Below, in pieces: positions 1 through 9,696 of a stretch of DNA of 51,377 nucleotides. Numbering within the stretch: the stretch's first letter is position 1; every line of letters starts with the position of its first letter. Below the pieces are notes generated by a model, which worked only from the letters and a program-made list of their open reading frames with translations, ran no database searches and was not told the DNA's origin. The stretch spans positions 1 through 51,377 of the forward strand of contig JAFTIH010000048.1 in the NCBI GenBank assembly GCA_017456985.1, read 5' to 3'. The translations under genes were made by a program, and so were the position numbers. The stretch comes from Clostridia bacterium. GTDB lineage: Bacteria > Bacillota > Clostridia > Oscillospirales > CAG-272.

Positions 1-194
1 AGCGAACGGCACTTAGTTCGCATAAAAATGATGCTCCGTGCCTTACATATGTAAATTCAGATACGAGTCTTTATCAAAACTCTTGTGGGGGCTATCTAAT
101 ACTCCAACCGAAATATGAACGCTCGGCAGCTGATAGCATAGGCACACAATTACATCTATTCAATTTTCAAGTCCTCATCTTTGTGAGGGGCTTT
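1..194 (-). other. Leader of an off-window transcript, probably rRNA
   Basis: This stretch has no credible gene. It would be transcribed leftward from the promoter at 195-223. It holds a small hairpin at 2-21 (GCGAAC/GTTCGC) and the rRNA-leader-like motif noted for the promoter. The 16S leader at the other edge is about 220 bases from the -10 box, so an rRNA gene would start a few tens of bases beyond the left border if the leaders are alike. The leader sequences are otherwise dissimilar, so the identity of the RNA is inference. Confidence 0.4.
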
Positions 195-223
195 ATTTTA
201 TCATACTCGGAAAAATTTGTCAA
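195..223 (-). promoter_or_regulatory. Strong promoter firing leftward out of the window
   Basis: Read on the minus strand there is a TTGACA box (218-223), a 17-base spacer and TAAAAT (195-200). About 40 bases downstream comes cttgaaaattgaatag, close to the ccttgaaaactgaac motif in the 16S leader at the right edge. This suggests an rRNA or other stable-RNA operon starting just left of base 1; the RNA gene itself is not in the window. Confidence 0.75.
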
Positions 224-336
224 GGCCTTTTTGAATAATTTTTTCGCTTTTTGGAAATAATACTTAGTTTGGCACAATCGGTCTAAAACACCGTTATGTC
301 GCTTCCCGGATTGTCATGGATTTTCACAAAAAGAAA

Positions 337-366
337 AGGCGATGAGTATATTTCAACTCATCGCCA
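337..366 (-). terminator. Terminator of the cohesin/dockerin operon
   Basis: GGCGATGAGT (338-347) pairs perfectly with ACTCATCGCC (356-365). On the minus strand the hairpin is followed by TTTTCTTTTT. It lies just past the stop of the dockerin gene. Confidence 0.85.
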
Positions 367-373
367 TAAGGAT

Positions 374-3300
374 TTAATTAAGTGCTTCTTTGTTAACCAA
401 GTAGTTGGTCAAAATTGTCGTGTCACGGTCATTTACTACGCCGTCGCCGTTAACATCGATTGCAATCATTTGTGCTTTGTTAGCGATTCTTGCATTTTCG
501 ATATACTGATTAATCATAACAATATCCTTGTTGCTAACCAGACCATCGCAATTGAAATCACCTGTAACGATAGCGGTCGTTTGAGCTATTAACTTTGTGC
601 CGTCATAAAGTTGAATTAAAGTTCCAGTGGTTACAAGAGCATCTTCTGCAAGAATTTTTCCTTTTGCATCACAGAAAATAAGATTCTCATTTTCAAAATG
701 ACTGCGGATTTCCGCAACGGTATTCTCTCCAAGGGGAATTGCGCGAAGGTTATTTTCGCTGTCAAAGCCCATTGTTGATGCGTATTTAAGAACAATGGCA
801 AAGTATTCATCTGTTAACACATTGACGGTCACGGATGCTTCAGAACCCGTATAAGGCAATTTAACTTTGATTACTGCAGTTCCGGCTGAATTTGCCGTTA
901 TCTTGCCGTTTTGATCTATGCTTACTACGCCCTCATTGCTTGATGTCCATACCATTTCATAAGATTTAGAACTTTCTGTTTCAACAGAAGCATTCAGTTG
1001 CATACTCTTTCCAATGCTAATATTTAACGTTACACTCTCATTTAATGATACAGAAGCATTTTCGCTTTCAGGGATATAAAGTGCTGATACAGTTGTATCC
1101 TCGGTAATACAATCATAGCTCTTATCCCAACCGACAAAAATGTATCCTTCACGGTGTGGAGGTAGAGGTGTATGTGCGGAACGCATATAATCTACTGTCT
1201 GACTGTACAATTCCGTTCCGTCATGATCCACGAAAACGACGGTATATGAAGCATATCCATACTTCGCATAGAGATCTACGCTTGATGTTACGGTATTCGT
1301 ATCACAAGCGAACTCATTCTCATAAGCTGCATCGAAGAATACTCCTTCGAATTCATATCCCTCCATATTCTTGAAAACAGACACAGGCAGTTTTTCGCCA
1401 GACTTAATCAAACCGTACGCCGGAGCAGAACCGTTTTCATCATGCAACTCTGACCAAATGGTAACGACATGGTATTTGTCGGTGTTATTTGCATTAATTG
1501 CATAAACACGGTAATCTTCACAGCTATTGTTCTTGCCGAGAGAGCTTGCGCAATAGCGAAGTACGCAAGATTCAGAAATGGTGATAGGTCCAGTGTATTC
1601 TTTTGCTGTAGCAGAAGTAGAGGGATCGCTGTTATCGGTGGTATACCAAATAGTTGCACTTTCGATCGTACAGGTCAAGGTTACGGTCTTTTGCTCGTTA
1701 TACTCGCCCGTTTCGATATCCGCAAGAGGCATATCCGTCGTTGCGGCAAAAGTGTATGAGGGATAGATAACAATATTCTCATCTACAATAGTTCCGTCAA
1801 TTGCTTCGCCTGTATGGGCATTAATCCATCCAGTGAAAATGTAATTCGGATTTTCCTCTACGCTCATTTGAACAGAACTGAAATCAATATAGTTTCCGTT
1901 TTCGACTACATATTCGCTTGCGATATCAACTGAATCGAGGCCATTGGTAATTATTGCATTTCCGTCGATGATGCTGTTGGGATTTGCGTTTACAATTGTA
2001 ACGGTATATTCTTCAAGGGTGCTACGAGTTTCAACGACCATGTTTCCCGAAACCGTATAACCTGCATCGTGGAATTCTTTGATTGTAAGATATTCGTTGC
2101 CTACTTGAACAACCCATTCAGTTATGTAACCGTCTTTTCCTTCGGGAGCTTTCTCTGCAATCAACTCTGCTCCGTAAAGGAACTCTTTAAGTTCAACAAT
2201 TTGTTTTTCCCAATTGACAAACGCTACCACATAACTTTCAGTTTCGCATTCGGGATATACATCCATATTTTCTCTAACATTCACAACGGACATATTCCAG
2301 TTTGTAAAACGATGTCCTTCGGGAACATTCAAGAGAGTTTCGGAAGGAAGTGTTGCGCTATCGCCAGCGGTTATCGTTTGTTGTGACAATACGGTGGTTC
2401 TATCAAAATCATAAAAAGTTACCGTATATGTAGGCTTGGGTGCCTCGATAACTCCTATTTTAATAGCTTTTGCTTGACCTGCCACAGATGCAACTATCGT
2501 ATAGTCGCCACTTTCAACTGTAGGCGCAGAAATAAGTTTTGCATTAGCTATATTGATAGATCCGTCGCTTCCTACTGTTGTCGTACCAATATACTGAATA
2601 TTTTCATTCGATGCTTGATCGTATTTGTAAACCCAAACCGTCGCGGCTTTTCCGGCATATTGACTTCCTACATTTCCGGACAAGTTATAAACCCTGTTAG
2701 AAGGAACAGACGGCTCATTAATCGTTGGATTGGTAGTAGTCATATACCGATATTGGTGGGTATAAGTAGTAGTACCGGGAACAATTTGAGTTTCAACATT
2801 CTGATAGGTTTTATTTGTGCCAGCGCTTTGTCCATTGTATATTGGAGCATTACTACTTGAATGTTCTATCCAACCGGTATATCCAGAATATTGATAGTAG
2901 TTATACAGTTTATTGTAGGTAGTATAGGTTTGCTTTCTTACCGTGATGATATTATCAGAGCCAGATACTGCACCATTCCACCAATAAGTATCCTTACAGC
3001 AAGAAGTATTTTTATATTTATAGGCATTTCCTGATGATGAATATGTCAATTTCTCGGTGCTAAAGAATGCATGGAAAGTTCCGTAGGTTGATGTTTTGGT
3101 CCAGTTGATCTTTCTATTTATCGCACCATGATTGCCACCGCGACACCAGTGCCAATAGATATAACCTACTACCTCGTTCGAATCTACAACTACTTTTTGT
3201 GTTGCGTTTTCGTATGCCGACACAGGAGTTTTGTTATACTGCGAGTAAAGAGAATTCGAAGTTAAAAATCCGTTATGCCAATTCGAGACATAAGTAACGC

Positions 3301-6300
3301 TTCTTGATCCAGCGTTGACGAGAGAGTAACCGTTCTGTGTCCATCCAGACATAGAAGTGCTATAGGATGTGGTAGTCGAAAGCGTTTTGTAGCGATAATA
3401 ATATTTCGTGGGGGATGTACTTGAAAGGGTTTGCGTTTCAACAGTAATTCCATTGCCGGAGGTCATCGGACAATTTCCAGTGTAAGTAATCCATCCCGAC
3501 CATCCAGACGACGTGCTGTTGTCGATGGTTTGGGTAGCTACCTTGGATATTTGTCCAAGGGCTTCGTTTTCATATCCATTTACTACATAAATCTCAATCT
3601 TAGGTGCAAGTTCGGGACACAATACAGTATCCGTGATTGTTTTATTTGCGAGTGCATCAATAGCAAATGCCGATGATTCAACCGTAGACAAAATAACTCC
3701 ACCTTGAGATTTGAGGACAAATACAACCCTACCCGTAGAAATCTCGGATACCTTGTTGCTAATGGTTACAGTCACATCATATCCTTGCTTTGTAGTGTTT
3801 CTCGTCACAGAATTTATTGTAACAGTAGCTGTATGATCCTTATCAATCCATTTGTAAACTGTGTAAACCGTCAAATCGGACTTGATATTGTTAAATGATT
3901 TATCCCAAGATGCCAAAGCATATCCGTCGGGAATGTTAGTTACATTGGGAGCTGTTGCACTCTGTCCGTACTTTACTGTTTGAGGAGATCCAATAACTTT
4001 GTTTGTAAAAGTATCAACAAACTTTACGGTGTACGAATTAACATCATAAACTGCATTTACGGTAATATTTTCGGTAACCTTATCGAAGGACTTATCCCAT
4101 TTTGCAAAAGTATGACCTTCTTGTTGGGGATTCTTCGGAGCAGATGCAGAATGTCCGTAGGAAACCGTTCGTGTGTCAATTGTTTTCTTTCCGATTGGAT
4201 CGTAGAATGTAACAGTCACATTGGGCATTACAGTAAAGGCTGCACTTAATCCTTGCGTAGTGCCGGCACTATTAACTGCTTCGATATGTGCTGTGTATGT
4301 ATCTGCAGTATCAAAACCATCAAGAACACATGTTGTTCCTGTTATATTGTTTTTGGTCTGAACAGTAGCTCCACTCGAATTTTTGATTACAATGTTATAA
4401 CTCTCTGCATTATCTACCGCATCCCAAAGAAGTGTTGCCTGATCGCCAATTCCGATTTTTAAGCTGCTTGAAGAAACATTTACACTTGGAACGGCAGGCA
4501 GAACCTTGGCGGTCGTAAAACTATAAACTGCTGATTCGTACCATTTAGAACCAATTTTCACAGTTGCCTTATAGTAATAAGTCGTATTGGCTTCCAAAGG
4601 TTGTTTGGCAAAACGGTTAATCTTAAATGATGCTGCGGTTTGAGTTTGAGGATCATTTGTATAGTCTAAAACTCGAACGCAATCCATTCCTGCAACCGTT
4701 TTATGCGTGCTTCCTTGTGTTCCATCTACTTTTTCTACTTGACTCTTGTCCTTACTCAAGAAGTAAGTCCATTTCTGAACAGTTGCAACGTTATTAAGTC
4801 TTACATTGATGGTTGCAGAGTTGTTAGTTGTTTCGCTACAGAAAACAGAAGAGATATCATAATCGGTGAAGGTTAATGCCTTGTCACCATGCCATCCCCA
4901 TCCTCTGTAGGGATATCCTCGATCAACGACATAGTCAATAGTGGTCTTAACTATTTTTCCAGACCAGCCATGCACTATATAACCGTCGCCAACATAGATA
5001 CCTATGTGTCCACATTTGTTTTTGCATGAGCTACATGTCTTACTGCTACCACCGAAGAAAACAGAAGCACCGAGAGGGATATCATCCCTGCTTTTGCTAT
5101 CTATAAAGCTATTTCCATACTTGTATGCGCAGCAAGCTGTAGATTTAAATCCATATGCATCTTCAAACAACTGTCTTACAAAACGCAAGCAATAACCATT
5201 TGCGTAGCTTGTTCCGACCTTGCTCAATGCTAAATCAACAATTTTTTGTGCATCTTTTGAAACAGGTTGAGTTGAAGTGCCTGTTCCTGCAGTATTTTTG
5301 TTTACATTACTTTCAACTTCATCGAAACTCGGAGCATGGGCTTTTTCATATGCATTGTATGTGATGTTTTCAAATTGTTTGTAATTATCTTCCTTTACAG
5401 TCTTAAATCCATGGAGTTCTTTAACAAGTCGAGCAGAGGATTCGCTTTGACCGGGCTTTGTTCCTTCGTGCTGAACAAGGTTAATGGAATAATCAAAACC
5501 TAACAAAACCACTTTTTTATACATTTCTACCGTTTGCATGTAGTATGTAGCATTTTCGAGTGTAGGAGAAGCCTTGTACGTTTTCTTGGCATTATCCATT
5601 ACTCGAATCATCGCCTTTTCAAAGTCCACACATGCGCCCAGTGCGTAATAGTACATATTTGATTTGTCGATATCGAATACGGCATTTGCAAGAACACGAA
5701 TGCCCTTGACTCCCAGCAATGCATAAGAATAGTTTGTTGTTCCGATAAATTCATCCCAAGCGTAATCGACCGCAACGGGCAGTACTGCCGCAACGTCAAC
5801 TGCTTTGTACACTACCTTTTTAGCAACGACATTCGCCAAAATCTTATCAAAGGCTTCATTGAAGAAAACTATGCACTCGGTTGCGGCAATTCTCAATCCG
5901 CGAGGATTGTTTGAATCGGCTGCCATAGCGGAGAGAATTTCCTCAACGCCATCCTTCAATTCCGAAATAGCTTGATAGCTTGTATATGATTCTATCAATT
6001 CGTCCATGTTCTTATACACAGATGAAATGTTGCTTACTGCGCTAAATGCTTTGAAAGTCGTTTCCGTTGCTGTAGATTTAGCAACTTTTTGCAGCACGCT
6101 CATATTGGTTGAATTTACTTTTGCATTCTTTAAATTTTTTGTATTTATTTTCTTTAAAACTTCTTGGGAAACAGACGCCAAGTGCTGAAGCTTATCGTTA
6201 GTGATTCCTTGAGCTAATGAGTCAAGTATACTATCCTTCTCATCCATATCTCCCAACATTAGATCAAAGATAACTAATTTATATCTTTCCGCATCTGTCA

Positions 6301-6628
6301 GTTTTCCCAATGCATAGGAAGGCTCGGAAACCATGTGATATGCTTCCCAAGTATTACGAATTGCTCTTAATCCATCATCCTCATCGAGCATCGTAAGATA
6401 TGTATTAGCATAGGAGGAACTTGCAGTTCCTACAAATATTTGATCAAAGAATTCTGCATAGCATTGAGCTTGGAATTCCTTATAAGCAGGCGAATCTTCA
6501 TCTGCGGAAGCAGCAGAGACTTGCATCGGAAGCCATGTAAATACAGATAAAAAAGTAATCATGGCTAAAAGGAATGCTACAGCTTTCGTTCCTATTTGCC
6601 TGAAGTTTATTCTTTTAGTTTTTGTCAT
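374..6628 (-). CDS. Giant secreted NlpC/P60 protein with dockerin domain
   Basis: A 2,084-residue exported protein. Visible in order: a signal peptide (about 1-40, ending VSAASA); an unassigned helical region (about 45-450); an NlpC/P60 peptidase domain (about 455-605) with catalytic Cys near 479 in NGYCLRF and His near 539 in CGHIGIYVG; a fibronectin-III-like domain (about 710-803); two InlB/Listeria-Bacteroides-type repeats (about 803-925); an aromatic-rich region (about 1035-1300); a third such repeat (about 1400-1463); a chitobiase-C-like domain (about 1638-1700); a fourth repeat (about 1796-1855); a Big_2 Ig-like domain (about 1855-1935); and a type I dockerin (about 2020-2084) with two Ca-binding loops, DFNCDGLVSNKD and DVNGDGVVNDRD. 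NlpC/P60 enzymes usually cut peptidoglycan stem peptides, so a wall hydrolase or surface adhesin is likely. It starts 3 bases after the cohesin gene stop, so the pair is probably co-translated. Base composition is AT-rich compared with the genes to its right. Confidence 0.9.
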   Translation of the reverse strand: MTKTKRINFRQIGTKAVAFLLAMITFLSVFTWLPMQVSAASADEDSPAYKEFQAQCYAEFFDQIFVGTASSSYANTYLTMLDEDDGLRAIRNTWEAYHMVSEPSYALGKLTDAERYKLVIFDLMLGDMDEKDSILDSLAQGITNDKLQHLASVSQEVLKKINTKNLKNAKVNSTNMSVLQKVAKSTATETTFKAFSAVSNISSVYKNMDELIESYTSYQAISELKDGVEEILSAMAADSNNPRGLRIAATECIVFFNEAFDKILANVVAKKVVYKAVDVAAVLPVAVDYAWDEFIGTTNYSYALLGVKGIRVLANAVFDIDKSNMYYYALGACVDFEKAMIRVMDNAKKTYKASPTLENATYYMQTVEMYKKVVLLGFDYSINLVQHEGTKPGQSESSARLVKELHGFKTVKEDNYKQFENITYNAYEKAHAPSFDEVESNVNKNTAGTGTSTQPVSKDAQKIVDLALSKVGTSYANGYCLRFVRQLFEDAYGFKSTACCAYKYGNSFIDSKSRDDIPLGASVFFGGSSKTCSSCKNKCGHIGIYVGDGYIVHGWSGKIVKTTIDYVVDRGYPYRGWGWHGDKALTFTDYDISSVFCSETTNNSATINVRLNNVATVQKWTYFLSKDKSQVEKVDGTQGSTHKTVAGMDCVRVLDYTNDPQTQTAASFKINRFAKQPLEANTTYYYKATVKIGSKWYESAVYSFTTAKVLPAVPSVNVSSSSLKIGIGDQATLLWDAVDNAESYNIVIKNSSGATVQTKNNITGTTCVLDGFDTADTYTAHIEAVNSAGTTQGLSAAFTVMPNVTVTFYDPIGKKTIDTRTVSYGHSASAPKNPQQEGHTFAKWDKSFDKVTENITVNAVYDVNSYTVKFVDTFTNKVIGSPQTVKYGQSATAPNVTNIPDGYALASWDKSFNNIKSDLTVYTVYKWIDKDHTATVTINSVTRNTTKQGYDVTVTISNKVSEISTGRVVFVLKSQGGVILSTVESSAFAIDALANKTITDTVLCPELAPKIEIYVVNGYENEALGQISKVATQTIDNSTSSGWSGWITYTGNCPMTSGNGITVETQTLSSTSPTKYYYRYKTLSTTTSYSTSMSGWTQNGYSLVNAGSRSVTYVSNWHNGFLTSNSLYSQYNKTPVSAYENATQKVVVDSNEVVGYIYWHWCRGGNHGAINRKINWTKTSTYGTFHAFFSTEKLTYSSSGNAYKYKNTSCCKDTYWWNGAVSGSDNIITVRKQTYTTYNKLYNYYQYSGYTGWIEHSSSNAPIYNGQSAGTNKTYQNVETQIVPGTTTYTHQYRYMTTTNPTINEPSVPSNRVYNLSGNVGSQYAGKAATVWVYKYDQASNENIQYIGTTTVGSDGSINIANAKLISAPTVESGDYTIVASVAGQAKAIKIGVIEAPKPTYTVTFYDFDRTTVLSQQTITAGDSATLPSETLLNVPEGHRFTNWNMSVVNVRENMDVYPECETESYVVAFVNWEKQIVELKEFLYGAELIAEKAPEGKDGYITEWVVQVGNEYLTIKEFHDAGYTVSGNMVVETRSTLEEYTVTIVNANPNSIIDGNAIITNGLDSVDIASEYVVENGNYIDFSSVQMSVEENPNYIFTGWINAHTGEAIDGTIVDENIVIYPSYTFAATTDMPLADIETGEYNEQKTVTLTCTIESATIWYTTDNSDPSTSATAKEYTGPITISESCVLRYCASSLGKNNSCEDYRVYAINANNTDKYHVVTIWSELHDENGSAPAYGLIKSGEKLPVSVFKNMEGYEFEGVFFDAAYENEFACDTNTVTSSVDLYAKYGYASYTVVFVDHDGTELYSQTVDYMRSAHTPLPPHREGYIFVGWDKSYDCITEDTTVSALYIPESENASVSLNESVTLNISIGKSMQLNASVETESSKSYEMVWTSSNEGVVSIDQNGKITANSAGTAVIKVKLPYTGSEASVTVNVLTDEYFAIVLKYASTMGFDSENNLRAIPLGENTVAEIRSHFENENLIFCDAKGKILAEDALVTTGTLIQLYDGTKLIAQTTAIVTGDFNCDGLVSNKDIVMINQYIENARIANKAQMIAIDVNGDGVVNDRDTTILTNYLVNKEALN

Positions 6629-6631
6629 CTT

Positions 6632-7162
6632 TTAGTCCTCGCTTTGAATGTTAATTGTGATATCGTGGCAATTGAGAACAATTTCGTCGATATCTTCATT
6701 TATGGTATTTTCCTGAATATATGATACTTGAAGCACAATGTTCTCGCTCGCTTCTGCCTTAATATCAAATTTTATAACGAACAACTCTAAATTAGTTGTA
6801 ATATTTGAGCTTCCTGACCATACGACGGAGAAAGAATTATCTTGTATAGTTTCGATGGAGTCGTTGAAGTTTCCTGTTGAAAGAGATGACGACGCTGTAA
6901 CACTTTTTGGAGTAACGGCATTTGCATCATATGTTATAACGATTTCAAAGCCACAAATTCCTTTGTTATTCTTAATCTTTATAGGCACCGCTACTTCTTG
7001 CCCAGCGGCAGCAGTTATTTCATCACAATAAATAATATTATCTACGATTTCGTTATTAGAGGATGGCGGTTTATTGCCTGACGAATTCGGTGCAAACAGA
7101 CTACAACCCGTAAAAGTTAAAGCCAAGCATAGTGATAGTAACAAAATGCATATTTTTTTCAT
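6632..7162 (-). CDS. Lipoprotein with cohesin-like domain
   Basis: A 176-residue protein with a lipoprotein signal (lipobox TFTGC, Cys about 20), a short Ser/Pro/Asn linker, then one cohesin-like beta-sandwich (about 42-172). Cohesin features are the opening AAAGQEVAVPIKIKNNKG, the GFEIVITYDANAVTP core, and a closing run of hydrophobic strands. Cohesins bind dockerins, and the next gene encodes one. The lipid anchor would place the cohesin on the outer face of the membrane, so this protein is a plausible docking site for its neighbour. The start is supported by AGGAGG eight bases upstream. It is preceded by a structured leader with its own terminator. A cohesin-fold (carbohydrate-binding) domain with no dockerin partner is the alternative. 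Confidence 0.75.
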   Translation of the reverse strand: MKKICILLLSLCLALTFTGCSLFAPNSSGNKPPSSNNEIVDNIIYCDEITAAAGQEVAVPIKIKNNKGICGFEIVITYDANAVTPKSVTASSSLSTGNFNDSIETIQDNSFSVVWSGSSNITTNLELFVIKFDIKAEASENIVLQVSYIQENTINEDIDEIVLNCHDITINIQSED

Positions 7163-7402
7163 AGAAAACCTCCTATCTTATGATATATAAAAAGGTGCGC
7201 TAACCGAAGCCAACGCACCGAAAAATGCAAACTCCGATTGTCGCTCAACAAAACTAAAATAAAATTAGGGTATTCGCTACCATAACTATTTAGTGGAGTT
7301 TGCATTTTTACCAAATTCCCAAAATAGTTATGGTTAAAAAAGGGTATAGTATTCCCGTAAAAGAAAAATACCGCTAATTTTAGATATTTAGTTTTGTTGA
7401 GC
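7163..7402 (-). ncRNA. Structured leader RNA with terminator upstream of cohesin gene
   Basis: On the minus strand the predicted start (about 7402) falls on the first base of a long stem. Pairings seen: 7389-7402 with 7243-7256 (14 bp perfect, extendable to 16); 7374-7381 plus the following bases with 7261-7274 (about 14 bp, one bulge); 7322-7334 with 7279-7291 (13 bp perfect); and 7295-7309, inside the loop of that hairpin, with 7221-7235 (15 bp perfect), which would make a pseudoknot. A terminator hairpin (7194-7219) and T-run follow, then the AGGAGG of the lipoprotein gene. No known riboswitch class is recognised. A cis-acting attenuator is the simplest reading. A DNA-level palindromic element or a separate small RNA remains possible. 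Confidence 0.6.
7194..7219 (-). terminator. Intrinsic terminator inside the cohesin leader
   Basis: GGTGCG/CGCACC close a stem that continues through wobble pairs to a TTCG loop. TTTTTATAT follows on the minus strand. It sits between the structured leader and the ribosome site, where an attenuator would be. Confidence 0.75.
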
Positions 7403-7408
7403 AAGAAT

Positions 7409-7437
7409 ATTATACCACAGTAAGAAAATAATTACAA
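7409..7437 (-). promoter_or_regulatory. Promoter of the cohesin/dockerin operon
   Basis: Minus strand TTGTAA (7432-7437), 17-base spacer, TATAAT (7409-7414). The expected start lands at about 7402, the edge of the first leader stem. Confidence 0.7.
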
Positions 7438-7470
7438 GTGTTATAAAAAAAACAACAAATTTTAATAAAA

Positions 7471-7506
7471 AATCCATCAGTGTCTAATTGGACTGATGGA
7501 TTTTTT
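7471..7506 (-). terminator. Terminator of the DUF6809 gene
   Basis: AATCCATCAG (7471-7480) pairs with CTGATGGATT (7493-7502). T-runs lie on both sides, so it could work in either direction. Its arms resemble those of the hairpin at 7917-7954. Confidence 0.8.
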
Positions 7507-7511
7507 CATTG

Positions 7512-7775
7512 TTAGATTAAGGTTTGTATTGCTATCTGCATTCCTAACTTGAAGGCATACTCGAAGATGGCTGCTTCGGCGAGACTCATGTACTCGCTCC
7601 AACAATCATGGAACTTCTCAAATGTTTCCTTCTGCTCGTCCGTGAAGCTCTTTTCGAGTTTCTCGTGATGCCTTGCCATATAGCCGAGGAGTTCCTTCAT
7701 CTCCTTTGAGTTGGTTCGGCTGTCCTCTTGCGGAATAATGTTTCCGTGCCATAGTTCTTTTATTGGGTTGTTCAT
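7512..7775 (-). CDS. DUF6809-family small protein
   Basis: An 87-residue protein of unknown function. It matches the pattern of DUF6809 proteins, which I know from Clostridia: an N-terminal ELWHGNIIP segment, a charged helical middle (KEMKELLGYMARHHEKLEKS) and a C-terminal FEYAFKLGMQ motif. The ATG at 7775 is chosen because AGGAGG lies 8 bases before it; a GTG three codons earlier is too close to that site. It is followed by a clean terminator, so it is a single-gene unit. Members often lie in accessory or mobile DNA, which suits the AT-rich surroundings. No function is assigned. Confidence 0.65.
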   Translation of the reverse strand: MNNPIKELWHGNIIPQEDSRTNSKEMKELLGYMARHHEKLEKSFTDEQKETFEKFHDCWSEYMSLAEAAIFEYAFKLGMQIAIQTLI

Positions 7776-7784
7776 TCGTTGCAC

Positions 7785-8142
7785 CTCCTGTTAGCACAAC
7801 AACATACCACAGAAGGGAGAGGAAGTCCAGCACTTTTTCGAAAATAAACCCAACTTTTTTCACGGCTGTACTCTTTGATTAATGCGACGCAATTATTGAT
7901 GAGCGATGGCATAAAGAAAAATCCATCACAGACTCTCGTCCATGATGGATTTTTCTCGTCCTATTCGGTTTTTGGTAAATTCTCCGTTAAGACGGGCAGG
8001 CTTTGTGCTTCCATCCTTTTTTCTTTGCTTTTTCCGATTTCTCGCTTGCCGTACGGATGTACGCCTGCGCTCCCAATCGAAAAATTCTGCTCAAAATCTG
8101 CTCGCGAGCTTACCGAAAAACGCGAGGAAAATGAAAAGTGTT
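7785..8142. other. Gene-free stretch with one terminator-like hairpin
   Basis: About 360 bases with no credible gene. The only clear structure is the palindrome at 7917-7954. The part from about 7960 to 8140 has no reading frame with coding character and may be decayed sequence at the junction between AT-rich accessory and GC-rich core DNA. Confidence 0.5.
7917..7954. terminator. Terminator-like palindrome
   Basis: AAAAATCCATCA (7917-7928) pairs perfectly with TGATGGATTTTT (7943-7954) around a 14-base loop. It shares the ATCCATCA arm with the terminator at 7471-7506, but no gene ends here on either strand. Confidence 0.55.
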
Positions 8143-9696
8143 TTACTCTTCCTTTTTCTTGGCTCTGCGTTTTGCGACGGCGGCGTAGAGGGCGCCGCCA
8201 CCGAGTGCCAAAAGAATGGTCACGAGGAACACGAGCGCCGAAAATAAATACTGCTTTTCGGCAAGCGCACTGCCGCAGATGGTAGAGGTAAGAATGGACG
8301 GAATGCGCGCAAAAAAGGTGAGCGCGAGGAAGGGCAGAAGCTTGACGTCCGTCAGCCCGATAAAATAGGTCACGCCGTCCTTGGGAGAGCCGGGGATCAG
8401 AAAGAAGAAAAAGATGAGCCCGTACAGCTTTTCCCCCGAGAAAAAGGCAGAAAAGCGGCGCACACTGCGCTTAGAAAAGAAGAGCGACAAAAGCCGCATC
8501 CCGAATTTTTTGGTCAGAAAAAAGATGGGGATCGTACCAAGCATATTACCGAGCAGGCAGTAAAGCATCCCAGGGACGGCACCGTAAGCAAATCCTGCGC
8601 CGATCTCAAGCGGCTCGGCGGGGATGAATTTTACCATCGTTTGCGCCGCGCGAATGAGAATAAAGATAAGCTCGTCAGCCGCGCCGAAGCCGTCAAGCCA
8701 CGCACGGAACGCCTCGGGCTCTGCGAGCAGAGCAAGCAGCTCCTGACCGAAAAATACGTAGGAAAGAATACACACGAGCGCAAACAGCGCGAGCGAGCAA
8801 ATGGCGACCGTTTGTGCGCGTGAGGGACGCGTGATGCGCAAAAAGGAACGCACGTGACGCGCCGCAACACCCGTGGGACGGGGCCCCTTCCTTTCGACGC
8901 TGGGATAGAACATATCGAGCATCCCCTCGTAGCCCGCAAGCCAAGGCTTGCATTTGCCGTTGTAGTGGATGATGCGCGTGCGCTCCCGCACCGTTGCAAG
9001 CGTCCACCCCTCCTTTTCCGTCAGATCGCGGAAGGTGCGCTCGTCTAAGTTATAGACCTCCTCGGGGACGAAGAGCGTTCGCTTGCCAAAGAGAATGTTC
9101 ACCATATCCTGATCGCCCATCAAAAGAGCGCGCACGTTTTCCTCCATCACCTCCAAGATCTCCTTGACGGTGAAATCCCGTCTGATAGCGGCAAGGTTGA
9201 GGAGCATCACGCCCGAATTGATATACCGTTCTTGCTCGCCTAGGTGTAAGCGCATCTTGTTAAAGCCGTCACGAAAGCCGTGCAGGTGTCCCGATGCCGC
9301 AATATAGTGCTCCGAAAGATCCGTTTCATAAAAGGATGACAGCTCCCCAAGCACGAGAATATCGGGATCCAAATACAAACACCGCTCGACCTCCTTCGGC
9401 AAAAAGTCGAAGGCGAGCAAGCGGTAAAAGGATTCCTCAGGTAACCGCTCAAGCACGGGAATATCGGAGAAGTGGCGCTCGCGAATGCGTACGTTGTGAA
9501 TGCGTACGCAAGAGCCCTCACATTCGTCTTCAAGACGTGCGAAATCCTCTTCGTCGAGCAGGGAATGTGCCACGTAAAGCTCCGTCGGGACGCCCTCGTT
9601 CGTGTCGATATACGAGCGAAGCATCGTGCAAAGCGGGGAAAGATAGTTTTTGTCAACCGTGACCAAAAGGTTGATGAACGTTTCGTTTTGTTGCAT
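8143..9696 (-). CDS. Fusion: GT8 glycosyltransferase + VTT (TVP38/DedA-like) membrane domain
   Basis: A 517-residue protein made of two parts. Residues about 8-260 are a family-8 glycosyltransferase: the DPD metal/nucleotide motif at 110-112 in YLDPDILV, an NSGVMLLN motif near 160, GDQD at 194-197 and HYNGKCKPW near 244-252. Residues about 295-510 are hydrophobic and match the VTT (SNARE-associated, TVP38/TMEM64) family, including the segment PAEPLEIGAGFAYG and the FFFFLIPGSPKD stretch. GT8 enzymes transfer sugars to glycans or lipids; some VTT proteins move or flip lipids. A membrane-coupled sugar-lipid enzyme is a reasonable inference. The start has AAGGA upstream. It is last in a leftward run after rsmG and the pyridoxamine kinase. 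Confidence 0.85.
   Translation of the reverse strand: MQQNETFINLLVTVDKNYLSPLCTMLRSYIDTNEGVPTELYVAHSLLDEEDFARLEDECEGSCVRIHNVRIRERHFSDIPVLERLPEESFYRLLAFDFLPKEVERCLYLDPDILVLGELSSFYETDLSEHYIAASGHLHGFRDGFNKMRLHLGEQERYINSGVMLLNLAAIRRDFTVKEILEVMEENVRALLMGDQDMVNILFGKRTLFVPEEVYNLDERTFRDLTEKEGWTLATVRERTRIIHYNGKCKPWLAGYEGMLDMFYPSVERKGPRPTGVAARHVRSFLRITRPSRAQTVAICSLALFALVCILSYVFFGQELLALLAEPEAFRAWLDGFGAADELIFILIRAAQTMVKFIPAEPLEIGAGFAYGAVPGMLYCLLGNMLGTIPIFFLTKKFGMRLLSLFFSKRSVRRFSAFFSGEKLYGLIFFFFLIPGSPKDGVTYFIGLTDVKLLPFLALTFFARIPSILTSTICGSALAEKQYLFSALVFLVTILLALGGGALYAAVAKRRAKKKEE

Follow-up and report, generated by a model that had tools for sequence, protein, structure and literature searches.

A cohesin lipoprotein and a dockerin protein with a predicted wall-hydrolase head: a putative two-gene surface tether in a Clostridia bacterium

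The window, i.e., the whole stretch of DNA analysed here, comprises 51,377 nucleotides of a Clostridia draft genome. Close to its left end lie two genes on the minus strand. In agreement with the first-pass annotation, open reading frames and a PF00963 match show that a single-cohesin lipoprotein is followed, after a gap of 3 bases, by an exported protein of 2,084 aa. The features of this region are as follows.

145–322, unstranded: left border of the cargo slot (91.6% identity in G022)
338–365, minus: intrinsic-terminator-like hairpin directly 3' of the dockerin gene (10 pairs, 6 of them G-C, then TTTTCTTTTT)
374–6628, minus: dockerin-bearing exported protein, 2,084 aa (ORF, Pfam domains, sole dockerin match in the genome)
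398–562, minus: type I dockerin, residues 2023–2077, with both calcium loops (Pfam, loop inspection)
839–4828, minus: spacer of Flg_new/InlB-type repeats, CHB_HEX_C_1, Big_2 and other modules, residues 601–1930 (Pfam, alignment with L111)
4889–5263, minus: NlpC/P60-like domain, about residues 456–580, with Cys480 and His541 (alignment A5, profile matches)
5345–6478, minus: N-terminal domain of unknown kind, residues 51–428 (28% identity to a G135 protein)
6632–7162, minus: cohesin lipoprotein gene, 176 aa (Pfam, lipobox pattern, sole cohesin match in the genome)
6677–7021, minus: cohesin domain of the lipoprotein, residues 48–162 (Pfam PF00963)
7186–7421, minus: structured leader RNA upstream of the lipoprotein gene, about 235 nt (alignment A7, covariation test, CM match)
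7468–8007, unstranded: right border of the cargo slot (also present in G028 and G022, where other host genes follow beyond about 8004–8007)
7512–7784, minus: DUF6809 protein, 90 aa, within the border common to sister species (PF20648, E = 5.3e-21)

The cohesin of the lipoprotein scores 50.6 bits (E = 3.1e-13) against a Pfam cut-off of 24.1. The corresponding profile, A6, retrieves solved cohesins, the best being 5nrk_A (7.3e-8), whereas the best PDB match of the single sequence is 2xdh (E = 0.0032), presumably a cohesin of Archaeoglobus fulgidus. The N-terminus is hydrophobic, reads as a lipoprotein signal peptide and matches what we take to be the lipobox pattern (SLCLALTFTGC, with Cys20); further strongly hydrophobic stretches are absent from the protein. 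Searches of viral contigs and plasmids yielded no relatives of it.

The large protein ends in a two-loop dockerin, as had been annotated: Dockerin_1 (PF00404) matches with 41.2 bits (E = 1.9e-10, cut-off 22.9), and both 12-residue calcium loops (DFNCDGLVSNKD and DVNGDGVVNDRD) are complete. The dockerin is preceded by a module of about 80 residues, which recurs in front of further dockerins in the family to which the window belongs. Among the best 60 of 181 matches of profile A4 (module plus dockerin), solved dockerins were matched by the dockerin part alone and no match of the module to a solved X-module was found. Five Flg_new stretches, CHB_HEX_C_1, Fn3_assoc and Big_2 exceed their Pfam cut-offs, and an NCBIfam search gave no match above cut-off. 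CHB_HEX_C_1 is a C-terminal accessory domain that takes its name from hexosaminidases. The pair has no Pfam match to a catalytic glycoside hydrolase or carbohydrate-binding module, and the earlier statement that it lacks these and a scaffoldin of the cellulosome type is borne out.

The NlpC/P60 label was less straightforward, since the window protein reaches 15.9 bits with PF00877, below the cut-off of 23. Three of five scanned relatives of the domain pass (L082, 23.6; L083, 26.1; L090, 35.4 bits) and two fail (L084, 18.9; L085, 15.2 bits); the two closest relatives both pass. Identity in the nine best matches from other families is 30–44%. The catalytic cysteine and histidine occur in order, Cys480 and His541 being invariant across the 12 rows of alignment A5. 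Profile A5 matches solved wall hydrolases, with 7cfl_A on top (2.6e-20) and LytE and MepS also found; it is dominated by 11 relatives, and the window sequence alone finds 7cfl_A with an E value of 0.0047. The window's own Pfam match thus falls short, and the label has indirect support from the kept Cys/His, the passing relatives and profile A5. A wall-hydrolase-type domain with predicted activity is likely to head the window protein, which agrees with one of the two cargoes first suggested, a wall hydrolase or an adhesin.

The other part of the head, domain 51–428 (about 370 residues), precedes the NlpC/P60 domain and had been passed over in the first-pass annotation. It has a relative in only one other of 196 family genomes, a rarity possibly overstated because no more than two candidates from each genome were scored in the whole-protein family search. 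This relative, 28% identical, forms the C-terminal region of an LRR-type protein of 1,950 aa encoded in G135. No Pfam family exceeds its cut-off in either sequence. Weak partial matches occur in G545, G392 and G373 among 394 genomes of the order. A Cap4_nuclease identity was considered for this domain and rejected, the match lying below its Pfam cut-off.

The 3-base gap and the terminator-like hairpin after the second gene give the pair the look of one transcription unit, such sites numbering 9 in 8.2 kb against 6.4 expected from shuffles. We do not regard the pairing as chance, because both cohesin and dockerin pass Pfam, the hairpin follows, and the arrangement recurs in seven loci of another family. 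Beyond the pair, the search of the draft genome (93.6% complete) for further cohesins and dockerins found none: there is one match of each. The draft accordingly contains no multi-cohesin scaffoldin and no set of dockerin-bearing carbohydrate enzymes, and its single dockerin protein matches no catalytic glycoside hydrolase family. With one match of each kind in the draft, we rejected a plant-fibre cellulosome for this genome. The pair could still belong to a larger, cellulosome-like assembly of which the remainder was lost from the incomplete draft, given that the contig stops 373 bases past the dockerin gene and that in six of the seven related loci a multi-cohesin protein accompanies the pair. 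We consider this quite improbable: the whole draft has the one cohesin and one dockerin match, and the dockerin gene is followed directly by the hairpin and then by the left border at 145–322. The description of the pair as minimal and private therefore applies to this genome, where it is the sole such pair found in the draft and apparently one unit, but 'minimal' is a local, cut-down state, as the multi-cohesin protein of the related loci indicates.

The seven further loci are found in six genomes of another family and share the spacer-dockerin tail at 28–39% identity. Tails are 27–60% identical among the locus pairs listed, while the heads differ. Starting at residue 601, the alignment of L111 with the window protein spans 1,545 positions at 35% identity. 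In all seven full loci a single-cohesin membrane anchor is linked to the dockerin protein, and in six the two genes are adjacent, with a spacing of −65 to 96 bases; in L111, the exception, a two-cohesin gene lies between them. The anchors of these loci have a C-terminal hydrophobic helix, whereas that of the window is a lipoprotein. Each of the genomes has 5 to 17 dockerin matches. With a common tail, different heads and a linked single-cohesin anchor found throughout, we propose that these loci represent a dockerin-tethered exchangeable-head chassis. In the window's own family the full chassis is present in one of 395 genomes, namely that of the window, which is also the only one of 391 genomes of the class with the chassis module (E of 1e-10). 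Two peptide patterns of the module found nothing in viral contigs. Downstream of the L111 anchor gene are genes for a recombinase, ParA and ParB; we do not claim the locus as ICE cargo.

Four of the eight heads match Pfam families above cut-off, namely ELLD/Amidase_5 (L139), CHAP (L142), Phage_lysozyme2 with M23 (L143) and M23 (L146), and no catalytic family was recognised in three (L111, L144, L145). By eye, the L111 head appeared C39-like and the L145 head M23-like; profile searches supported neither, and both assignments were dropped. The L139 head reads as an endolysin-like amidase. Repeats of the Flg_new and InlB types, like SH3 domains, occur commonly in adhesins. The complex might be an adhesin or a protein-degrading display, its NlpC/P60-like fold either lacking activity or acting on proteins or mucus, and its repeats binding a host or neighbour surface. 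The sub-threshold match of the window and the three heads without a family would suit such a role, as would the cell-cell interaction or protective protease proposed for RflaF_05439 of Ruminococcus flavefaciens (as described in PMC3573020), but the catalytic Cys and His are retained and half of the heads belong to clear wall-hydrolase families, so that we hold this explanation to be unlikely.

The pair stands out from its surroundings in composition, with a GC3 of 0.33–0.34 against 0.68–0.75 for nine long ORFs elsewhere in the window and a sharp GC step near 8 kb. Together with the position at a contig end, this step might signal an assembly chimera, the low-GC end coming from another organism. 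Yet the low-GC flank at 7170–8127 has matches in 47 of 69 genus genomes (own counted), mostly at 70–90% identity and many of them short repeats, and the left flank is nearly the same in G022; as the flanks are native to the genus, a chimeric contig is highly improbable. The border with the DUF6809 gene is 84–90% identical at the DNA level in G018, G028, G022 and G009, and the right-border match in G031 extends to 8020. In G022 the left border lies about 3.5 kb from the right one, in the same order and orientation and with different cargo between. No convincing terminal repeats were found between the two flanks.

The 18 nearest of 46 cohesin domains compared with that of the window are all from chassis loci. 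Mean identity is 28.7% to 27 chassis domains versus 19.0% to 19 own-genus domains (19 of 23 other genus matches, four of G007 being left out; two L143_sca segments below 80 residues were dropped). The Mann-Whitney values, 7e-6 with 19 and 2e-5 with 12 own-genus domains, are descriptive only, because the compared cohesins are related sequences. Likewise, the seven chassis dockerins (39.0–52.5% identity) top the 30 compared with that of the window, one of 20 own-genus dockerins tying at 39.0% (20 of 32 other genus matches, one domain per protein). Cohesin and dockerin are both nearest to chassis loci, and therefore both halves come from the same kind of source. On these sequence grounds, the pair is a trimmed form of a conserved system, brought in by horizontal transfer, as its GC is low, its nearest relatives belong to another family and its borders are native to the genus.

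Cohesin-dockerin specificity is often narrow. It is conceivable that the two halves do not bind each other and were co-transferred while serving other partners. Indeed, at what we take to be the recognition positions the window dockerin has SNKD/NDRD, which differs from NNRD/NNKD in six of seven relatives and from TTLD/NLHD in L111, the nearest whole protein, itself devoid of an NNRD-type strip. However, other partners were not found in the draft genome and both halves were inherited jointly, making this option improbable. The nearest neighbours of the window cohesin include scaffoldin domains (L143_sca.4, L146_sca.1), short proteins and anchors, in a tree that lends the placement no support; given the scaffoldin domains among them, cohesins of scaffoldins may be the preferred partners of the chassis dockerin.

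From the domains, their linkage, the head exchange, the foreign composition and the native borders, we consider it fairly probable that the pair is a surface tether in which the lipoprotein cohesin holds a dockerin-borne wall-hydrolase head, as a horizontally acquired two-gene form of a conserved exchangeable-head locus. The lipoprotein would be lipid-anchored on the outer face of the membrane, its cohesin is predicted to bind the dockerin at the C-terminus of the large exported protein, and the string of repeat modules would carry the head (NlpC/P60 and the unknown domain), predicted to be catalytic, outward through or beyond the wall. The locus type would thus combine one constant spacer-dockerin tail with exchangeable, partly phage-lysin-like peptidoglycan hydrolase heads, its constant partner being a membrane-anchored single cohesin and, elsewhere, a multi-cohesin protein too. 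The head would more likely act outward, with other cells or wall debris as its target, than on the cell's own septum.

NlpC/P60, CHAP and M23 enzymes often act on the wall of their own cell. The complex may accordingly be a self-directed, tethered autolysin that trims its own wall for growth, division or the passage of surface structures, and the lipoprotein anchor would keep the dockerin end near that wall. Nevertheless, with about 1,330 residues the spacer should, judging from its size, reach past a wall, the heads are swapped between catalytic families, phage-type lysins included, which is unusual in a housekeeping autolysin, and the locus type occurs in few of the genomes searched; we regard this alternative as rather unlikely. 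Extending the surface tether further, we put forward, tentatively and with some doubt, a mobile lytic surface apparatus, in which phage-lysin-type hydrolases on a common dockerin tail would sit on cohesins with a lipid or TM anchor (at other loci, in multiple copies on scaffoldins) and lyse or graze on neighbouring bacteria; the window would contain a form pared down to a single plug and socket and placed behind a leader RNA of wide occurrence. If so, the logic of the cellulosome would be turned on bacterial walls, and heads acting on other cells would make a contact-dependent lytic system without a dedicated secretion machine.

Studies of cohesin-dockerin assembly have mostly concerned plant fibre and starch, and more recently mucin. 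The present locus type would use the same plug-and-socket for predicted wall hydrolases, with heads swapped as modules and the tail and membrane socket kept constant. The two-gene version, with no other cohesin or dockerin found, offers a clean natural pair testable with two proteins. We know of no wall hydrolase in the Archaeoglobus fulgidus pair, which differs from that of the window in domain content. As described, the archaeal pair resembles it in having few modules and being non-cellulosomal (PMC9705933, PMC9012536). A precedent for a cohesin-held NlpC/P60 protein is RflaF_05439 of R. flavefaciens, reported to contain two NlpC/P60 domains and an X-dockerin bound by the cell-surface cohesin ScaE (PMC3573020). 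The two systems share NlpC/P60 head(s), a C-terminal dockerin and a cohesin anchor at the surface, binding being predicted in the window. By contrast, R. flavefaciens is described as having a large cellulosome with more than 220 dockerin proteins and a sortase-attached anchor (PMC3573020), whereas the window has a lone pair with a lipoprotein anchor, and a 2,084-aa repeat protein on an exchanged-head chassis is unlike RflaF_05439. The Limousia mucinolysome is likewise a gut-bacterial cohesin-dockerin complex with a purpose other than cellulose and has a wall-anchored cSca5, but it comprises multi-scaffoldin mucin enzymes, without a peptidoglycan hydrolase system as described (PMC12997984). Lachnoclostridium sp. 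MSJ-17, presumably non-cellulolytic, has single-cohesin membrane anchors too, in the form of proteins with a C-terminal TM helix; unlike the window, it has up to 39 dockerin proteins, and a private pair or lytic heads are absent from its description (PMC11557425).

The leader RNA consists of P1, a hairpin, a 15-bp crossing helix and a terminator (7219–7194) near the RBS. It has no Rfam match and covaries in alignment A7, which took 33 of 38 stretches and omitted two of three L206 tandem copies, the L216 contig-end copy, L078 and the partial second L210 copy. The structure tested derives from complementarity within the window itself and from the RNAalifold consensus, and this origin gives it an advantage in the test relative to slid versions. 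The CM matches the window, whose sequence is part of the model, and a promoter-like TTGTAA-17-TATAAT precedes the leader at 7437–7409.

The pair and its neighbouring elements lie as follows:

6632-7162, minus strand: cohesin lipoprotein gene, lipobox Cys20, one cohesin
374-6628, minus strand: dockerin protein gene, 2,084 aa, 3 bases from the lipoprotein gene
365-338, minus strand: terminator-like hairpin directly 3' of the dockerin gene
7421-7186, minus strand: leader RNA, about 235 nt, 5' of the lipoprotein gene

The cohesin-like domain proposed by the first-pass annotation is borne out by a single PF00963 match (50.6 bits versus a cut-off of 24.1), and the two-loop dockerin proves to be of type I, located at the C-terminus of the large protein with both calcium loops present. 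The 3-base spacing of the two genes likewise holds. The large protein begins with a hydrophobic, signal-peptide-like N-terminus, followed by a domain of unknown kind (residues 51-428), the NlpC/P60-like domain and a spacer of ~1,330 residues composed of Flg_new, CHB_HEX_C_1, Big_2 and other Pfam modules. A domain related to residues 51-428 is also found at the C-terminus of a G135 protein (L080:7667-13519) with a lipoprotein-like start and LRR-like repeats.

Assignment of the NlpC/P60-like domain is less straightforward. It scores 15.9 bits, below the Pfam cut-off of 23; Cys480 and His541 are invariant in an alignment of 12 rows. The window domain shares 30-44% identity with its nine best relatives from other families. 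Of five relatives scanned, L082 (23.6), L083 (26.1) and L090 (35.4 bits) reach the cut-off, and L084 (18.9) and L085 (15.2 bits) fall short. Searched against solved structures, the 12-row profile, which is dominated by the relatives rather than the window sequence, retrieves the wall hydrolases 7cfl_A (2.6e-20), LytE, MepS and Tn916-like hydrolases; the window sequence by itself retrieves 7cfl_A at E 0.0047.

A scan of named genomes, with the lipoprotein as query, yielded one relative, locus L111, in a genome (G396) of a different family of the window's order. From residue 601 of the window protein onward, the 1,780-aa protein of L111 shares 35% identity with it (538 of 1,545 positions); the N-termini are dissimilar. 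Next come a 1,293-aa protein, in which cohesin is matched twice, and a 371-aa single-cohesin protein with a hydrophobic helix at its C-terminus; the cohesins of both were matched by our own profile only, Pfam giving none for either. A profile built from window residues 930-1400 and L111 (A2), run at E 1e-5 against 300 genomes of that family, gave matches in 11 (the L111 genome included), from which 13 loci were taken (L111 and L137-L148). The full chassis, that is, the shared spacer and C-terminal dockerin, is present at seven of these loci in six genomes (L111, L139, L142, L143, L144, L145, L146); the remaining six have only part of the chassis middle in common. All seven full loci have, linked to the chassis gene, a gene for a single-cohesin protein whose hydrophobic anchor is C-terminal, and six of them also encode a multi-cohesin protein. 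Dockerin matches in the full-chassis genomes number 5 (G986), 7 (G1020), 6 (G1244), 17 (G1059), 6 (G1007) and 14 (G1216). Ten other dockerin loci of the chassis genomes were partly read; nine have a dockerin frame, and most of these proteins, judged by eye, are of repeat, LRR-like or cohesin-dockerin type. Further dockerin proteins with part of the chassis middle occur at L141:6188-8398, where a CHAP domain is also present, and L148:7247-9136; their genomes contain 54 and 79 dockerin matches, respectively. At L111:12719-20460, genes for a serine recombinase, ParA and ParB, possibly an integrative element, lie 3' of the anchor gene, followed by a SpaA-repeat surface protein.

The N-terminal heads of the chassis proteins differ. 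Pfam scans of the first 500-650 residues (the whole length for L111) placed the following above the cut-offs: ELLD and Amidase_5 in L139, with NLPC_P60 at the cut-off; CHAP in L142; Phage_lysozyme2 and Peptidase_M23 in L143; and Peptidase_M23 in L146. Thus, four of the eight chassis proteins, counting that of the window, have a clear wall-hydrolase head. Over the same range, the L144 and L145 heads contain SH3 and no catalytic family, and no catalytic Pfam family was matched along the L111 protein.

The most likely reading, predicted from sequence, is that the lipoprotein would hold the dockerin end of the large protein at the membrane, with the repeat modules carrying the head outward; judging by its size, the spacer may be able to span a Gram-positive wall. 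The patchy distribution and the swapping of heads between phage-type lysins favour, with moderate confidence, the wall of other cells rather than the cell's own as the target. A similar arrangement is described for RflaF_05439 of R. flavefaciens, an NlpC/P60 and X-dockerin protein held at the surface through the cohesin of ScaE; the binding is cited there as unpublished and the function is left open by its authors (PMC3573020). Cohesins and dockerins outside cellulosomes are described for archaea and bacteria (PMC9012536, PMC9705933), and single cohesins with TM helices for Lachnoclostridium sp. MSJ-17 (PMC11557425). Among the matches listed from open-licence PMC literature, no title or abstract start describes a cohesin-dockerin system with exchangeable heads.

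The search for other cohesins and dockerins proposed earlier found one match of each at E 1 in the draft genome (1.80 Mb, 49 contigs, 93.57% complete, 0.37% contamination), both in the pair; the window is the entire contig C47. At E 0.001, cohesins are found in 9 and dockerins in 14 of the 69 genomes of the genus, the window's genome being in both counts, and several harbour small sets. In each of G042, G041 and G016, a dockerin protein gene is followed, at -4 to 71 bases, by one for a single-cohesin protein whose hydrophobic anchor is either C-terminal or N-terminal. Small dockerin and single-cohesin membrane-anchor sets of the genus, unrelated in sequence, are:

L065:4949-10726
L072:5645-7992
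L070:5247-8746

Together with the window, these sets represent three types of anchor (C-terminal TM, N-terminal TM and lipid). Since the other genus cohesins are only 11-27% identical to that of the window (19 of 23 other matches compared), they are parallel to it and not its source.

Among 46 cohesin domains from the chassis loci and the genus, the 18 closest to that of the window are all at chassis loci, and mean identity is 28.7% for the 27 chassis-locus domains versus 19.0% for the 19 from its own genus. Compared with 30 dockerins, that of the window is closest to the seven chassis dockerins (39.0-52.5%); one of 20 own-genus dockerins ties at 39.0%, the others falling below, and three non-chassis dockerins at the chassis loci reach 21-27%. 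Of 395 genomes in the window's family, only its own has the full-length chassis, with partial matches in four others. GC3 of the pair is 0.33-0.34; nine further long ORFs in the window have values of 0.68-0.75. Taken together, these sequence comparisons suggest that the cohesin and dockerin halves were probably acquired together from outside.

The leader RNA occurs in 38 stretches of the genus loci examined, and three copies were seen in the window's own genome; examples are:

L191:7655-7887
L206:538-771
L225:1330-1557
L226:1407-1643

By eye, most of 36 copies examined begin at promoter-like sequence and end in a terminator just ahead of an unrelated gene's RBS or start. The structure of 48 pairs comprises P1, a hairpin, a 15-bp crossing helix and the terminator. 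In 33 aligned copies, pairing is 93.7% over the 48 pairs, 24 of which changed on both sides; the observed covariation was reached in 0 of 500 shuffles, and slid partners gave 37-46%. Rfam has no match to window 1-9000 at E 0.1. In L146, L206 and L199 it yields a TPP riboswitch elsewhere in L206 and two matches far below gathering scores; of these two, mir-558 (892-965) overlaps a leader copy in L206. A covariance model finds no leader in the examined stretches of six chassis loci and detects one at the seventh, L146:3303-3483 (E 7e-18), ~210 bases ahead of that locus's first cohesin gene, in the other family. The leader, which covaries strongly and is scattered ahead of many unrelated genes of the genus, is a candidate new class of regulatory RNA.

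Despite the foreign appearance of the pair, the stretch between it and the host genes is native to the genus. Window 7170-8127 has DNA matches in 47 of 69 genus genomes at E 1e-5 (its own included, many via short repeats), and in G018 DNA resembling the DUF6809 gene and the leader precedes another gene, for a 1,971-aa lipoprotein-like protein. Both borders, 145-322 and 7468-8007, are present in G022 in the same order, ~3.5 kb apart, with different low-GC ORFs between them; the right border stops at 8004-8007 in G028 and G022, with other host genes beyond. Therefore, the pair seems to sit in a slot with exchanged cargo. Differing low-GC cargo within conserved borders is seen in sister species (L193:8263-12384; L191:7224-13820), and the bordered stretch is a candidate cargo slot or some kind of mobile element. 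At the slot edge, window 8024-8126 contains a ~95-base repeat, with three more copies in a row on contig C11 of G000 (L227, about 1554-1939).
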